Part shown: positions 11,316 through 16,887 of the stretch, one piece after another
Layout of the letters: each line of letters opens with the position of its first letter
Numbering within the stretch: position 1 is the stretch's first letter
Origin: Sapientia aquatica
GTDB taxonomy: Bacteria; Pseudomonadota; Gammaproteobacteria; Burkholderiales; Burkholderiaceae_D
DNA: 64,000 nucleotides
Reading direction: 5' to 3'
Assembly: GCF_004358105.1 (NCBI RefSeq)
Contig: NZ_SMYL01000002.1
Location: forward strand, 248,001 to 312,000
Position numbers and translations under genes: made by a program
The notes under the pieces: generated by a model
Seen by the model: only the letters and a program-made list of their open reading frames with translations
The model's database searches: none
Told to the model about the DNA's origin: nothing

Positions 11316-14069
11316 TTATTGCCAACCGTAATGACGCACGTAGATTCCTTTCATCCATTGCACCAAACCGGCGTAGCCCAACAAAATAGCGGCTAACCAA
11401 GGGAAGTAGGTCATCGGTAGCGCTTCCAATTTGAAATAACTTGCCAACGGGCTCATCGGTAAGGAAATACCGATAATCATGATGCACAGCGTCATTAGCA
11501 ACAAAGGCCAGGCAGCGCGACTTTGGAAGAAGGGTACTTTTGGTGTGCGAATCATATGCACGATTAGCGTTTGCGTGAGCAAGCCCACCACAAACCAGCC
11601 CGATTGAAACAAGGTTTGACTAGCTGCCGTGTTGGCATGAAATACATTCCACATTAACGCGAAAGTGCAAATATCAAAGATCGAGCTGAGCGGCCCAAAA
11701 AACAACATAAAGCGACCGATGTCGGAGGGATTCCAATTGAGTGGCTTTTTAATTGATTCTTCATCCACGTTGTCAAACGAGATCGCAATTTGGGAAATAT
11801 CGTAGAGCAAATTTTGGACTAGCAATTGCAGTGGCAGCATCGGCAAGAACGGCAGGAACGCGCTAGCTACTAAGACGGAAAATACATTGCCAAAATTTGA
11901 GCTAGCCGTCATGCGAATGTATTTGAGCATGTTGCAAAAAGTTTTGCGGCCTTCCAAGACACCTTCTTCGAGCACCATCAAACTTTTTTCGAGCAAAATA
12001 ATATCGGCCGCTTCTTTGGCGATATCCACCGCGCTATCAACCGAAATGCCAATGTCAGCAGCGCGCAGGGCTGGCGCGTCGTTAATTCCATCGCCCATAA
12101 AGCCGACGATGTGACCGTTGCCGCGCAGGGCGTTGACCAGACTTTCTTTGTGTAACGGGTTTAGTTTGGCAAACACGTTATTTGCTTCGACTAGGCGGCC
12201 CAATTCATCGTCGCTCAGCCCATCAATCTGTGACCCGAGAATCACGCCATTTATTGCTAAGCCCACTTCATGGCAAATTTTGCTAGTGACCAGTTCATTA
12301 TCACCAGTTAGGACTTTGACGGCGACGCCATGTTCAGCGAGCGCTTTTAGCGCGGGCGCGGTCGATTCTTTGGGCGGATCTAAAAACGCGATATAGCCGA
12401 TTAATGTGAGTTCGGCTTCATCGTCAGTGCAATACGCCTGTTTATTAGGTGGAACCTCTTTCACAGCCACGGCAACCACGCGTAATCCTTCTTGATTCAG
12501 GCTTTGAGTCACGAGCAGTAGGCGCTCAAGAATGGTGCTGTCCAAGGCGACGGTGTTTTCACCTTCTCTGACGTGGGTGCAGACCGCTAAGATTTCTTCC
12601 ACCGCGCCTTTGCAAATTAATTCGTGATGATCTTGGCGTTCTGATACCACGACCGACATACGACGCCGTCCAAAGTCGAATGGGATTTCATCGATCTTTT
12701 GGTAATCCTGCGCCAGCTTTAATTCGGTCTGCAATTCCACGTGATCTAGCACCGCGCGGTCGAGCAGATTCTTGAGTCCGGTTTGGTAATAGCTGTTGAG
12801 GTAAGCAAACTTGAGGACGTCAGAAGATTCATTTCCCAGCACATCGATGTGACGCGCTAGGAAAATTTTATCTTGCGTGAGCGTGCCGGTTTTATCGGTA
12901 CACAGCACATCCATTGCGCCAAAGTTTTGAATCGCATCCAAGCGCTTAACGATGACCTTTTTGCGGGACAAAATTACCGCACCTTTTGCCAAGGTCGAGG
13001 TGACAATCATCGGCAACATTTCAGGCGTTAAACCGACGGCGACGGACAAGGCAAACAAAAACGCTTCCATCCAATCGCCTTTAGTAAAGCCGTTGATTAA
13101 CAACACAATTGGCACCATGATTAAAGCAAAACGAATCAGCAGCCAGCTCACTTTATTGACGCCGATTTGAAACGATGTCGGCGCGCGATCAGCGGAAGTC
13201 ACGCGCGTAGCAATCGTTCCAAAATAAGTTTGATTACCGGTATTGAGCACGATCGCAAGCGCCGATCCCGATACTACGTTGGTACCCATAAATAAAATAG
13301 TATCCAGTTCCAAAATTGTGTTGCCGTCGGTTTTGGAAGCGTCAGCAAATTTTTCTACCGGAAGCGATTCGCCCGTCATCGCCGCTTGGCTGACGAATAA
13401 ATCTTTGGTTGACAGAATGCGGCAATCAGCCGGAATCATGTCGCCGGCAGACAGCATGATGATGTCGCCGGGGACCAATTGTCGAATTGGTAGTTCACGC
13501 TGATTCGAGGGACGCAAAGTTTGATCTGCGGCTGAATTGTCGGTAAAAGAGTGGGCCGAAATTGCACCGCGCCGAAGCACAGTCGCGGTATTGGTGACTA
13601 ACGCGATTAGCTGTTCCGCTGCGCGATTCGATTTTCCTTCTTGAATGAATCGAATCAGGGTCGATAAGCCGACCATTGTGCCAATGACGATGGTCGCTTT
13701 GAGATCATCGGTGCAGTACGAAATGATCGCTAATACCGTCAACAATAAATTGAACGGATTTTTGTAGCACAGCCATAGGTGCTGCCAAGCGGGCAGTGGC
13801 TTTTCGTGTTCGACTTCGTTCGGGCCGACTGTTTCGCGGATGATTGCGGCTTCCTCGTCGTTGAGCCTGTCGAGGCGTGAATGCAGGCGCTGGATTAACG
13901 CATTCTGTGGCATATGCGACGCATCAATGAGCTGACGCGTTAGATGCTCTGGAGCGGCGGGCGATTGCGTGGTTGGCGCGCCAGAACCGATTATTTTGGA
14001 ACGTTGAAAGTAATGTTGGGACCGCCGACTTTTCAGAAAGCGCGCGAAGCGTGTGGTGAAGAAATTCAT
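11316..14069 (-). CDS. mgtA: Magnesium-translocating P-type ATPase (P3B)
   Basis: A 917-residue P-type ATPase of the MgtA/MgtB class that imports Mg2+ across the inner membrane. The actuator motif is AAMTGESLPVEK. The phosphorylated aspartate lies in CTDKTGTLTQ (about residue 392), and the hinge is GFMGDGINDAPALR near residue 660. The C-terminal helices carry the QNLLYDISQ segment typical of magnesium pumps. No heavy-metal-binding domain is present. An in-frame ATG at 14090 exists. I chose 14069 because an AAAAAGGAAAA ribosome-binding site sits 5 bases before it. It lies downstream of mgtC with a 362-base gap holding a MEPDP leader ORF, so magnesium-dependent leader control is likely. Confidence 0.95.
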   Translation of the reverse strand: MNFFTTRFARFLKSRRSQHYFQRSKIIGSGAPTTQSPAAPEHLTRQLIDASHMPQNALIQRLHSRLDRLNDEEAAIIRETVGPNEVEHEKPLPAWQHLWLCYKNPFNLLLTVLAIISYCTDDLKATIVIGTMVGLSTLIRFIQEGKSNRAAEQLIALVTNTATVLRRGAISAHSFTDNSAADQTLRPSNQRELPIRQLVPGDIIMLSAGDMIPADCRILSTKDLFVSQAAMTGESLPVEKFADASKTDGNTILELDTILFMGTNVVSGSALAIVLNTGNQTYFGTIATRVTSADRAPTSFQIGVNKVSWLLIRFALIMVPIVLLINGFTKGDWMEAFLFALSVAVGLTPEMLPMIVTSTLAKGAVILSRKKVIVKRLDAIQNFGAMDVLCTDKTGTLTQDKIFLARHIDVLGNESSDVLKFAYLNSYYQTGLKNLLDRAVLDHVELQTELKLAQDYQKIDEIPFDFGRRRMSVVVSERQDHHELICKGAVEEILAVCTHVREGENTVALDSTILERLLLVTQSLNQEGLRVVAVAVKEVPPNKQAYCTDDEAELTLIGYIAFLDPPKESTAPALKALAEHGVAVKVLTGDNELVTSKICHEVGLAINGVILGSQIDGLSDDELGRLVEANNVFAKLNPLHKESLVNALRGNGHIVGFMGDGINDAPALRAADIGISVDSAVDIAKEAADIILLEKSLMVLEEGVLEGRKTFCNMLKYIRMTASSNFGNVFSVLVASAFLPFLPMLPLQLLVQNLLYDISQIAISFDNVDEESIKKPLNWNPSDIGRFMLFFGPLSSIFDICTFALMWNVFHANTAASQTLFQSGWFVVGLLTQTLIVHMIRTPKVPFFQSRAAWPLLLMTLCIMIIGISLPMSPLASYFKLEALPMTYFPWLAAILLGYAGLVQWMKGIYVRHYGWQ

Positions 14070-14431
14070 CTGTTTTCCTTTTTTTAGCAATACTTGAGCT
14101 GTTTGTAAGCCCGTGCAAAGTGGGTATTGCTCCCAATTGACTTGTGCGCGACGAGCCTAAACCCACTCAACGAAAAGTCGGAGTGAAACGCGGTGCGGTG
14201 CTAACAGAGGTCGATCGATTGGAGCGCGTAACATTGCGCCAAAGTAGGAAGGGGATGTGGTGTTGCGGTCTTAATTAAACTGACATGGTCTTGCTAAGTG
14301 TTGATTCGCTTTGGGAGCGGGGGCCTGCCAGTCGTCAATGATCTGCTTATCCAAAATCCGCCATTACTTTGGCGCATCGTAGATTCGGGGTCTGGTTCCA
14401 TTTGCTTCTCCTAATGTGAGGTGGCGATGAG
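14070..14431 (-). promoter_or_regulatory. mgtA 5' leader: candidate Mg2+-responsive, translation-coupled RNA switch
   Basis: This mgtC-mgtA spacer is mostly non-coding on the minus strand. It holds the 35-codon leader ORF (14294-14401) and then 224 bases before mgtA. Bases 14365-14376, inside that ORF, are perfectly complementary over 12 nt to 14235-14246, so the RNA can form a long-range helix. The downstream strand can instead form a local hairpin (14219-14242; GGCGC region with GCG and CCAA). Nearer to mgtA, AGTGGGT and ACCCACT form another inverted repeat. Mutually exclusive pairing beside a leader peptide is the layout of an attenuator. The structure is seen by eye; function is inferred. 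Confidence 0.6.
14294..14401 (-). CDS. mgtL: MgtL-like leader peptide (35 aa, starts MEPDP)
   Basis: A small ORF lies between mgtC and mgtA. It starts with ATG at 14401, 30 bases after the mgtC stop, and has a near-perfect TAGGAG ribosome-binding site at 14408-14413 (6-base spacer). The product begins MEPDPESTMRQ and later contains GRPPLPKR. The MEPDP opening is the same as in the enterobacterial MgtL leader peptide. There, the Glu-Pro-Asp-Pro run destabilises the translating ribosome when Mg2+ is low and thereby raises mgtA expression. The present peptide is twice as long as E. coli MgtL. Homology or convergence cannot be told apart here. The gene symbol is by analogy. Confidence 0.7.
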   Translation of the reverse strand: MEPDPESTMRQSNGGFWISRSLTTGRPPLPKRINT

Positions 14432-15136
14432 TTAGTCTAGCGTGCTGTTTAAGTTGGCCCATCGGACTAATGAGACACTTTTTTCCATGCTGACTCGGCT
14501 GACTATTTGTTCCAATAAATTGTGGTGGCCGGGCACAGCTAGCACATCAGCACGGACTTCAATTTTGCCGCCTTGTGGCACATCTTCGCTGTGCAGCGAT
14601 TGCAGTACTAGCGGTGCCATGCCTTGAATAGTGTGCAACAACAAGGTGCGAACATGGACTTCTTCAGTCGAACAGCACACCACATTGATGCGATACACCT
14701 GTTCGATTTCAATGCCGGCCGCGACACTTTGACGGTTCATGCGTTGTGCAACATCACGCAAAACAAAGTTAGCGCCAAGAATAAAAAAAGTGCCAATAGC
14801 AGCTTCTGCTGAATGACCCAAGCCAGACAGGATGCCGACCGCAGCCGAGCACCACAGCGTGGCTGCGGTATTCAAGCCACGCACGTTTAAACCTTCGCGC
14901 ATGATGACGCCTGCGCCCAAAAAGCCTATCCCTGAAACGACCTGCGCAGAAATTCGCATCCCTTCAATCGGAAAAGCAGACAGCGAAGCGGTTGAGACGA
15001 ACAAGGCCGAGCCAGCGGCGACCAAAGCGTTGGTGCGTAATCCGGCCATACGTTGGCGCAATTGGCGTTCGGTTCCGATGATGGAACCTAAAAATAGCGC
15101 GAGTAAAACGCGCAGAGTGAATTCATACCAGATCAT
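14432..15136 (-). CDS. mgtC: MgtC/SapB-family inner-membrane protein
   Basis: A 234-residue protein. Its N-terminal half has four to five membrane helices with the MgtC signature LLALFLGSIIGTERQLRQRMAGLRTNALVAAGSALFV (given by position, residues 11-47), then GIGFLGAGVIM. A soluble C-terminal ACT-like domain of about 90 residues follows. MgtC proteins are induced at low Mg2+ and act on F1Fo ATP synthase, phosphate uptake or intracellular survival in Salmonella and other bacteria. It is the first gene of an mgtC-mgtA operon. A GGGAG ribosome-binding site and a strong promoter about 310 bases upstream support this. Confidence 0.9.
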   Translation of the reverse strand: MIWYEFTLRVLLALFLGSIIGTERQLRQRMAGLRTNALVAAGSALFVSTASLSAFPIEGMRISAQVVSGIGFLGAGVIMREGLNVRGLNTAATLWCSAAVGILSGLGHSAEAAIGTFFILGANFVLRDVAQRMNRQSVAAGIEIEQVYRINVVCCSTEEVHVRTLLLHTIQGMAPLVLQSLHSEDVPQGGKIEVRADVLAVPGHHNLLEQIVSRVSMEKSVSLVRWANLNSTLD

Positions 15137-15609
15137 GATAACTCCCTGTGATCAGGCGCAATGGGAGTGCCTCGTTTTGCTGCGTTCGCGTAAATGCGTC
15201 AGACCAGATCAGCGTGAAAATGTCGTCGACAAATTCATGCCAAATCTAGAGAGCTAGAATGCATATTGCGAATTGAAAAAATAGTTTTGAATTAGTGTTG
15301 GTCAGAGATTTGACCGAGACGCCGCGCCAAGTTAGGCACAGCAAAAGGAAGAATTGCAGGGCCCGAATTATGCGGTGGTGTTTAACAGTAATCGACAACT
15401 ATCACCAGAACAAGTACTCACAGAGCGCCCTTTTTGTTTGTAATAGCGCGATTGTAATGACGCGCTGCAGCATTGTCAATTAGGAATCGAAGAATTTAAG
15501 GAGGAACTAAATCTGCCGACTTGCTATGCTCAATTTCATTGATGTAACTAGGTACGAAATTGAGGACCAATAAGCCGGCAGAAGGTGGCAGCGCACAGTG
15601 CGCTTAGAC
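15137..15609. other. Long intergenic region upstream of mgtC (leader, promoter, hemL 3' structures)
   Basis: These 473 bases hold no supported protein gene. On the minus strand, in transcript order, there are three things. First come the hemL 3' hairpins, with a GCGCACAGTGCGC palindrome at 15591-15603 and a nested stem using 15513-15518/15576-15581 and 15529-15537/15556-15564. Next is a near-consensus promoter at 15451-15479. Last is a predicted mgtC leader of about 308 bases. The leader contains only tiny ORFs (for example 17 and 9 codons) without strong ribosome-binding sites, and a GGTCA/TGACC hairpin at about 15300-15315. Confidence 0.5.
15451..15479 (-). promoter_or_regulatory. Sigma-70 promoter for the mgtC-mgtA operon
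   Basis: On the minus strand, TTGACA (15474-15479) is followed after exactly 17 bases by TACAAT (15451-15456). This is a perfect -35 box with a one-mismatch -10 box. Transcription would start near 15444, leaving an untranslated leader of about 308 bases before mgtC. Confidence 0.75.
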
Positions 15610-16887
15610 TTAGTTGAGCTGCGCGAAAGCGTGGCGAGCAACTTCCAACGTTGCGTTAATAATCGCGTCATCGTGCTGTGCCGAAACAAAGCCCGCCTCA
15701 AATGCCGAAGGAGCTAAATACACGCCACCGTCCAACATCAAATGGAACAGCCGATTAAATTGCTCTTTATTCGATTGCATAACGGCGGTGTAGCTGGTTG
15801 GCACTTCTTTTGAGAAATACAAACCGAACATGCCGCCTATGGAATCTGCGCAGAAATCCATATTGGCTTGCTGTGCGATTGCCGTTAAGCCTTGCGCTAA
15901 TTTCGCTGTTTGTGCAGTCAGATTGTCATAGAAGCCCGCCGATTGAATCAGCTTTAGCGTCGTTAATCCCGCCGCAACAGCAACCGGGTTGCCCGACAGA
16001 GTTCCTGCTTGATACACGCCGCCTAACGGAGCCATGTGCGCCATTAGATCTGCTCGTCCACCAAATGCGGCGACTGGTAATCCGCCGCCGATCACTTTGC
16101 CCAAAGCAGTCAAATCTGGTTTGATGTTGTAGAGCGATTGCGCGCCGCCAAGCGCAACCCGGAAGCCGCACATCACTTCGTCAAAAATCAACACAGCGCC
16201 GTGTTCAGTGCAAAGGCGACGCATCGTTTGCAAAAACTCGGGCGTAGCTTTTATCAAGTTCATGTTGCCAGCCACTGGTTCCACAATGACGCAAGCGATT
16301 TGATCGCCCATGGCTTTGAAGGTGTCTTCCAACTGCTGGGTATTGTTGTAATCCAATACCAAAGTGTGTTTGGTAAAGTCAGCCGGAACTCCTGACGAGC
16401 TTGGGTTGCCTAGTGTTAGCAAACCGGACCCAGCTTTGACTAACAATGCGTCGGCATGACCGTGATAACACCCTTCAAACTTGATAATTTTGTCGCGTCC
16501 GGTCGCGCCCCGTGCCAAACGTAAGGCGCTCATGGTGGCTTCTGTGCCAGATGACACCAAGCGAACTTGTTCGATTGATGGGACGAGTTTGCAGATTTCT
16601 TCTGCCATTAAGATTTCGCCTTCAGTCGGCGCACCAAAACTCAAACCTAATGCAGCCGCTGCTTGCACCGCTTTAACGACGTCGGGATGGGCATGTCCAA
16701 CAATGGCTGGGCCCCATGAGCCGATGTAATCGATGTAGCGCTTTTGTTCTGCGTCCCAAAAATAAGGACCTTCAGCACGGGTTATAAAACGTGGAGTGCC
16801 GCCGACCGAGCGAAATGCTCGCACGGGTGAATTGACGCCGCCTGGCGTAGTAATTTGTGCACGTTCAAAGAGTTCGGTATTACGCAT
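15610..16887 (-). CDS. hemL: Glutamate-1-semialdehyde 2,1-aminomutase
   Basis: A 425-residue class III PLP enzyme that converts glutamate-1-semialdehyde to 5-aminolevulinate, the committed C5 step of haem synthesis. It has the N-terminal [27 protein letters not shown] near residue 115, and the [11 protein letters not shown] segment. [11 protein letters not shown] carries the PLP-ring aspartate near residue 238, and the Schiff-base region is around [11 protein letters not shown] (Lys about 265). Full length for the family. The start codon ATG at 16887 has only a weak ribosome-binding site. It is followed 60 bases upstream in the genome by the thiD-like gene on the same strand, so the two probably share a transcript. 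Confidence 0.95.

Follow-up and report, generated by a model that had tools for sequence, protein, structure and literature searches.

A putative MgtL-type leader ORF between mgtC and mgtA in a betaproteobacterium, with conserved complementary RNA arms

The spacer between mgtC and mgtA in the window (the whole 64,000-nucleotide stretch analyzed here) holds a short ORF, leader 2, whose product starts with MEPDP and which has a homologue in another genome of the same genus. Sequence comparison supports its being a conserved element rather than a chance ORF, and likewise supports an MgtL-type leader beyond the Enterobacteria. We consider it very probable that leader 2 is a genuine cis-acting leader. 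The whole reading, a cis-acting leader of mgtA that acts like MgtL but with an RNA switch of its own, is one toward which we lean, and that Mg2+ is the signal sensed we place just on the better side of even.

All features of the locus lie on the minus strand, where the order of transcription is a promoter-like site, a GTG-initiated ORF (leader 1), mgtC, the MEPDP ORF, and mgtA. The mgtA gene (positions 11316 to 14069) encodes a magnesium-translocating P-type ATPase (TIGR01524, 1370 bits), and mgtC (14432 to 15136) gave matches to PF02308 and PF21770. Leader 2 (14294 to 14401; ATG start, 35 amino acids, MEPDPESTMRQSNGGFWISRSLTTGRPPLPKRINT) lies 30 nt past mgtC, and its Shine-Dalgarno sequence (SD), TAGGAG (14408 to 14413), is 6 nt ahead of the ATG. 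A previous sequence-only reading had reported this 35-codon ORF in the spacer, with the same SD; its coordinates and peptide were right, as was the remark that the ORF shares the MEPDP start of Escherichia coli MgtL (NC_000913) and is twice as long. Leader 2 was not found at the head of an mgtA transcript: it follows mgtC, and the sole promoter-like site (TTGACA-17-TACAAT, 11/12 matches; 15451 to 15479) stands directly ahead of leader 1. Since the scan of positions 14000 to 15650 gave this one site versus a mean of 1.5 in shuffled sequences, the count is no higher than chance; only its position and the 11/12 matches are suggestive, and the site is probably the transcript start. At gathering thresholds, Rfam, whose mgtA leader model we take to be the one named Mg_sensor, gave no match within the window. 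A search of 12 mgtA loci up to an E value of 1 returned five matches, all far under the gathering scores and dismissed as chance, and locus L006 had none up to the same limit. No plasmid DNA resembling the window spacer was found.

Among five genomes of the window's genus, close mgtA and mgtC genes were found in two, and the particular window-type leader is carried by two species only. In the second of these (G002; 79% for MgtA and 88% for mgtC against the window), the homologous ORF starts MEPESESILRQSHGGF and lies downstream of mgtC. It has an SD, AAGGAGG, followed by ATGGAACCAGAGTCTGAATCT (peptide, MEPESESILRQSHGGFTLADLSCVD), and the surroundings of the SD have diverged from those in the window. 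The order of genes in G002 is GTG leader, mgtC, a small ORF of the MgtC_SapB_C type, and then the SD and the MEPES leader. The small ORF, directly after mgtC (L219:1363-1716), encodes 117 amino acids that amount to the MgtC_SapB C-terminal domain alone, and PF21770 fits it. Past the leader there is a CusB/AcrB/OEP-type efflux operon (L219:2112-7759), with a HlyD/CusB-type adaptor (HlyD_D23, RND-efflux), an AcrB-type pump, and an outer-membrane protein, which separates the leader from mgtA. Given that mgtA is ca. 6 kb further on and that the efflux genes come next, the G002 leader may have been parted from mgtA or may serve other genes too.

Comparison of the two ORFs by codon showed that within codons 1 to 16, 10 were identical, 1 was synonymous, and 5 were changed, while none of codons 17 to 25 was conserved. 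The conserved part is therefore the start of the ORF together with the first of two complementary arms (arm 1; see below). That five of the six codon changes in this part alter the residue fits an RNA constraint as much as a peptide constraint. The EPDP of the window corresponds to EPES in G002: both leaders have acidic residues at 2, 4, and 6, P5 has become serine, and the G002 leader (25 amino acids versus 35 in the window) has a single proline, P3. The PPLPKR stretch, which had been likened to the PLPRRR of MgtL, falls in the part that is not conserved in G002, and we do not retain that likeness. Conservation in close relatives, on which the first reading had been made to depend, is seen in G002 for the ORF, its three acidic residues, and the complementary blocks but not for P5 and the PPLPKR part.

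The best-conserved blocks between the window and G002, TGCGCCAAAGnnATGGCGGATTT (in the ORF) and ATCCnCTTCCTACTTTGGCGCA, are mutually complementary in both species. Arm 1 (14354 to 14376; TGCGCCAAAGTAATGGCGGATTT) covers codons 9 to 16 of leader 2, and arm 2 (14235 to 14256; ATCCCCTTCCTACTTTGGCGCA) is a C-rich segment ca. 130 nt downstream of it; both are conserved versus G002. The duplex predicted between them comes to −27.8 kcal/mol for the window and −22.3 kcal/mol for G002. By partition-function folding, the mean pair probability was 1.0 for the window; for G002, it varied between 0.52 and 0.97 with the chosen start of the fold (0.52 when it begins 20 nt ahead of the ATG). As an alternative, arm 2 is predicted to form a local hairpin of low stability (−7.3 and −8.2 kcal/mol). 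No compensatory changes between the arms separate the two species, so the duplex rests on conservation and complementarity rather than on covariation. The raw composition of the 78 nt around arm 2 is 38% C and 12% G; C-rich, G-poor segments are typical of Rho loading sites.

A 12-nt perfect inverted repeat in the spacer links the MEPDP ORF with a downstream site. Inverted repeats of at least 12 nt appeared in none of 300 dinucleotide shuffles, the maximum being 11, reached twice. Among long-range repeats in 121 distinct 362-nt stretches upstream of mgtA, only two were longer than that of the window, a string of N in L027 and a repeat of 27 nt in L091. The latter, AGTAGTCAGCCCGGTTAAATTAGTGGG, is a perfect inverted repeat ca. 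150 nt upstream of mgtA and may mark the termini of a small mobile element. A search with the block 1 pattern allowing one mismatch was discarded as too loose, matching at least 202 of the 392 genomes of the family; among the matches listed, only the window's site was seen by eye to be at a known mgtA position.

The start motif itself, ATGGARCCNGAYCC (ATG-GAR-CCN-GAY-CC), is present once in the 4.43-Mb genome to which the window belongs, at the MEPDP ORF. When an SD was required and the motif relaxed to M[ED]P[ED]P (GGAGN{3,9}ATGGANCCNGANCC), we found 13 sites in 12 of the 392 family genomes, versus 9 sites for the reversed-pattern control in the same set (hand count of the table). MgtA or MgtC was encoded within the 1.5-kb flanks at the window's site only, and the strict SD-M[ED]P[ED]P ORF was not found ahead of mgtA in any other of the 392 genomes examined. 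The same pattern gave 16 sites in 16 of 300 genomes across the order, and in the 28 pattern loci tested (13 from the family and 15 order-wide), MgtA was downstream in two, the window and genome G792. Counting instead by mgtA, the strict pattern occurred in 8 of 90 distinct upstream regions, with none on the reverse strand and none in 100 rounds of shuffling; these eight are the window, the E. coli control, three regions recruited through the pattern itself, and L062, L074, and L262.

The last three belong to a set of similar leaders in other betaproteobacteria. In 158 loci, many of them near-duplicates, we scanned the 1,200 nt that precede mgtA for an SD followed by M[ED]P-type starts, and the matches were the window, E. 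coli mgtL as a positive control, L009, L062, L074, L248/L259, and L262. MDPDP ORFs with an SD precede mgtA in L062 (an Acidovorax MAG), L074 (Delftia tsuruhatensis), L248/L259 (G792, with a leader identical to that of L074), and L262 (G970). L062, L074, and L262 had been recruited by similarity of MgtA and not by the motif, the family of L262 having been searched because of G792. In the genus of G970 (g409), the pattern was present in five of six genomes, a denominator that includes all genomes irrespective of the presence of mgtA, and it was upstream of mgtA in four of those five. The six distinct leaders (MDPDPSRSC, MDPDPSRSR, MDPDPSRSC, MDPDPSRSI, MDPDPGPPA, and MDPDPRRRS) differ in codons 2 to 5 by four synonymous changes only, and the peptide varies past residue 5; this constancy is partly built in, since M[DE]P[DE]P was a requirement of the pattern through which three of the six had been selected. 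In all six sequences, the SD of the next ORF lies inside a predicted hairpin (−16.4 to −29.1 kcal/mol), and in all but L062, this next ORF encodes 118 to 139 amino acids beginning with MQ. The examples at L259:1044-1466 and L262:1071-1475 are uncharacterized ORFs of ca. 130 amino acids (MQH/MQR...) between the MDPDP leader and mgtA, with the SD in the predicted hairpin and no Pfam match.

The proposal of the sequence-only reading that MEPDP or acidic-proline ORFs be sought upstream of other mgtA genes was productive in Delftia, the Acidovorax MAG, and four of six genomes of one genus, and the strict leader was not found in most of the Comamonadaceae-type mgtA loci examined. Within ten loci at 65% identity or more, only L259 and L262 had it, and L055, L056, L058, L075, L103, and L105 were without a strict MxPDP leader. 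Locus L009 (G018:C1) has MEPAPISLFSRC (MEPAP) with an SD, 176 nt ahead of mgtA, together with a GTCSG leader; no long-range repeat was found upstream of its mgtA, and we treat this ORF as a weak lead. M[ED]P-type ORFs lacking an SD or having other starts (L008, L011, L020, L131, and others) were not accepted as leaders. In a literature search that lay outside most subscription journals, we found no report of mgtL-like leaders in betaproteobacteria, and the papers retrieved with MDPDP or MEPDP were, among the matches listed, off topic by title.

A tree of 43 MgtA proteins placed the leader-bearing betaproteobacterial rows (L006, L062, L074, L262, and, with MEPAP, L009) in one 19-row clade (100/100), which also includes rows with the other leader, leader 1, and rows without any. 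L009 was sister to the window plus G002 (98/93). From its place in this tree, the window probably comes from an Oxalobacteraceae-like betaproteobacterium. E. coli MgtA, on a long branch, grouped with two Neisseriales (98/95), apart from the betaproteobacterial clade, and the leader-bearing proteins did not group with it as common descent with enteric MgtL would suggest. Because of this placement, convergence is favored as the origin of the MxPDP leaders of betaproteobacteria and E. coli. Mapped on the tree, the M[ED]PDP label takes four changes, of which branches with good support force at least three. Its clustering does not exceed that of shuffled labels (127 of 500 shuffles were as low); within the betaproteobacterial clade, one origin and several would both be compatible with the tree. 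It had been suggested that the ribosome-based sensor is wider than the Enterobacteria or arose twice. The M[ED]PDP leaders with an SD before mgtA in other betaproteobacteria speak for this, with the tree favoring the second option, and the case is weakened by EPES in the nearest relative and by the absence of the strict motif before mgtA in every other family genome examined.

The operon carries, in addition to the ORF of the earlier reading, a second leader at its head. The leader 1 ORF (15368 to 15421; GTG start, MSTCSGDSCRLLLNTTA) lies upstream of mgtC, and G002 has MSTCSSDSSRLSFGTAA at the same place. ORFs of this type (matching MGTCSSDSSRP at 6 or more of 10 positions) were detected in 90 of 129 mgtA loci, after removal of one false match in L104 from 91; many of these loci are near-copies. 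The 89 distinct cores that we collected all have an NTG start (G in 56, A in 29, and T in 4), and 84 have GGAG 6 to 9 nt ahead of it. Codons 4, 6, 8, and 9 show scarcely any third-position variation, suggesting an RNA constraint in addition to coding. Downstream of the ORF, the RNA folds are more stable than those of shuffled sequences (mean z, −3.0; z below −1 in 85 of 89); inside the ORF, the effect is weak (mean z, −1.1; 51 of 89 below −1), and the window itself has +1.7. A covariance model of this RNA built from 34 sequences, R1, scored 48.5 bits (E value, 5.9e-12) at 15319 to 15436 of the window, itself one of the training sequences, and 51.2 bits (E value, 1e-12) in G002 (L210), which is outside the training set. 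R1 also matched upstream of mgtC in Janthinobacterium and Glaciimonas-like genomes. A class-wide search recovered 2 of 274 genomes, the window's own and one with a 22.6-bit match, but weak matches escape its strict filters, and the sample is a poor guide to distribution. The 22.6-bit match, which lies inside an ORF that reads like a protease, presumably of the Deg type, was rejected as chance. No Rfam family matched leader 1 in the window or in the loci tried, and no GTCSS-type leader was found at an E value of ≤0.1 in L062, L074, L259, or L262. ORFs reading M[GS]TCS[SG]DS[SC]R (GTG, ATG, or TTG start) with structured RNA stand before mgtA or mgtC in Pseudomonas and Burkholderiales (L010, L030, L055, L071, L079, L112, and others). 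One plasmid record contained DNA resembling the Pseudomonas leader 1, and "MGTCSS" was not found in the searched papers, a set that excludes most subscription journals.

Several described systems resemble parts of this arrangement. Like MgtL of E. coli and Salmonella, leader 2 is a short ORF with its own SD that precedes the gene for a P-type Mg2+ ATPase and starts with MEPDP. In E. coli MgtL, ORF bases take part in alternative pairing (TCCGGTAA at the end of that ORF can pair upstream or downstream); for leader 2, a duplex with ORF bases and a weaker local hairpin at arm 2 are predicted. However, MgtL has 17 amino acids in E. coli K-12 (NC_000913), against 35 here, stands at the transcript head instead of between mgtC and mgtA, and uses the end of its ORF, whereas arm 1 of the window is in codons 9 to 16. 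Moreover, neither a conserved PLPRRR part nor further homology is found in the window ORF, which has no Rfam match at the gathering threshold, and E. coli MgtA is remote in the tree. The tandem MgtM/MgtP attenuators of Salmonella mgtCBR, as described in PMC3641672, share with this locus an mgtC-linked operon, more than one short leader ORF, and translation-dependent stem-loops; both Salmonella ORFs precede mgtC, whereas the window has one ahead of mgtC and the other in the mgtC-mgtA spacer, and the sequences are unrelated. In CorL, the corA leader, translation of an upstream ORF lowers expression of a Mg2+ transporter gene, with Rho, but the transporter is another one, the start is UUG, and there is, according to PMC11552253, a single conserved proline. 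The MDPDP leaders of Delftia, the Acidovorax MAG, and g409 share the SD and the M-acid-Pro-Asp-Pro start upstream of mgtA and differ in having a predicted hairpin over the SD of the next ORF, versus a long-range duplex with the ORF itself in the window.

For MgtL, PMC11282234 and PMC11552253 describe inefficient translation of acidic and proline residues at low Mg2+, which raises mgtA expression. Early acidic residues one residue apart are linked in PMC11282234 to stalling and drop-off of ribosomes on mgtL and aceB, and EPDP is linked to the control of mgtA. Rho-dependent termination is reported for Salmonella, whereas PMC11552253 states that no evidence of it was found for E. coli mgtA. By analogy, we infer for leader 2 translation, Mg2+-dependent drop-off, a role for Rho, and the direction of the switch. 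Ribosomes initiating at 14401 would meet the acidic/proline run (E2-P3-D4-P5-E6) immediately, and arm 1 comes directly after it, so that early loss of the ribosome would free arm 1 for arm 2. With ample Mg2+, ribosomes would clear the run, translate codons 9 to 16, and prevent arm 1 from pairing; the C-rich arm 2 region would stay open, and transcription would stop ahead of mgtA, most likely by Rho. At low Mg2+, ribosomes would be lost at the run, and the bare arm 1 would pair with arm 2, masking the C-rich segment and letting RNA polymerase reach mgtA. Leader 2 would then be a second gate in a leader 1-mgtC-leader 2-mgtA operon, one that could keep mgtA shut while mgtC is read.

Part of the evidence could also be read with the ORF as a mere track for ribosomes over an RNA attenuator. 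Any slowing or loss of ribosomes before codon 9, from general translation stress and not from Mg2+, would then let arm 1 pair with arm 2, and the likeness to MEPDP would be partly luck. Conservation between the window and G002 does track the pairing blocks over the peptide, P5 is serine in G002, and the C terminus is free to vary. Nevertheless, G002 retains MEP and the acidic residues at 4 and 6, and six distinct MDPDP leaders stand before mgtA in another group, so that we judge this account unlikely, while taking it seriously. The proline codons at positions 3 and 5 would alternatively suit attenuation in which the leader senses scarce charged tRNA-Pro, instead of Mg2+ through acidic residues, for which the proline-responsive leaders MgtL and MgtP before mgtA and mgtC in Salmonella, as presented in PMC3641672, offer a precedent. 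The G002 leader, with P3 as its only proline and its acidic positions retained, makes such a sensor quite improbable.

That the spacer simply contains a chance ORF with a coincidental MEPDP start has in its favor that the motif was chosen after the fact among many windows and was not found before the other mgtA genes examined in the family. A homologue with an SD and conserved complementary blocks in G002, a 12-nt inverted repeat never reached in 300 shuffles, and MDPDP leaders elsewhere are hard to reconcile with coincidence, to which we give slightly less credence still than to proline sensing. Least probable in our view is a small functional protein, for instance, a regulator of MgtC or MgtA, in place of a cis-acting leader. 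Enteric bacteria do have such small proteins acting on MgtC/MgtA systems (MgtR and MgtS), but leader 2 has no Pfam or NCBIfam match, its C-terminal half shows no conservation, and the two species differ in the length of the product (35 versus 25 amino acids).

Leader 2, together with the similar leaders before mgtA in some other betaproteobacteria, suggests that a hard-to-translate peptide start as a magnesium sensor may extend beyond E. coli and its kin. More tentatively, and at somewhat less than even likelihood, the M[ED]P[ED]x start (two to five acidic/proline residues) may be a portable Mg2+ sensor that evolved repeatedly before mgtA and became coupled to various RNA outputs: a long-range duplex masking a C-rich segment in the window's genus, an SD-covering hairpin in the Delftia group, and Rho-linked structures in Salmonella. 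Here, it would act in series with the unrelated and wider leader 1, which has no match among the Rfam families tried and would, in beta- and gammaproteobacteria, stand at the head of transcripts of mgtC and mgtA. If so, ribosome stability on an acidic/proline start would be a general, repeatedly invented way of sensing Mg2+ and not an enteric specialty. The variants MEPDP, MEPES, MEPAP, and MDPDP within one MgtA clade would reveal which residues matter and would provide a direct comparative test of intrinsic ribosome destabilization in nature. Leader 1, for its part, is a distinct candidate for the regulation of Mg2+ transport in many Pseudomonas and Burkholderiales.
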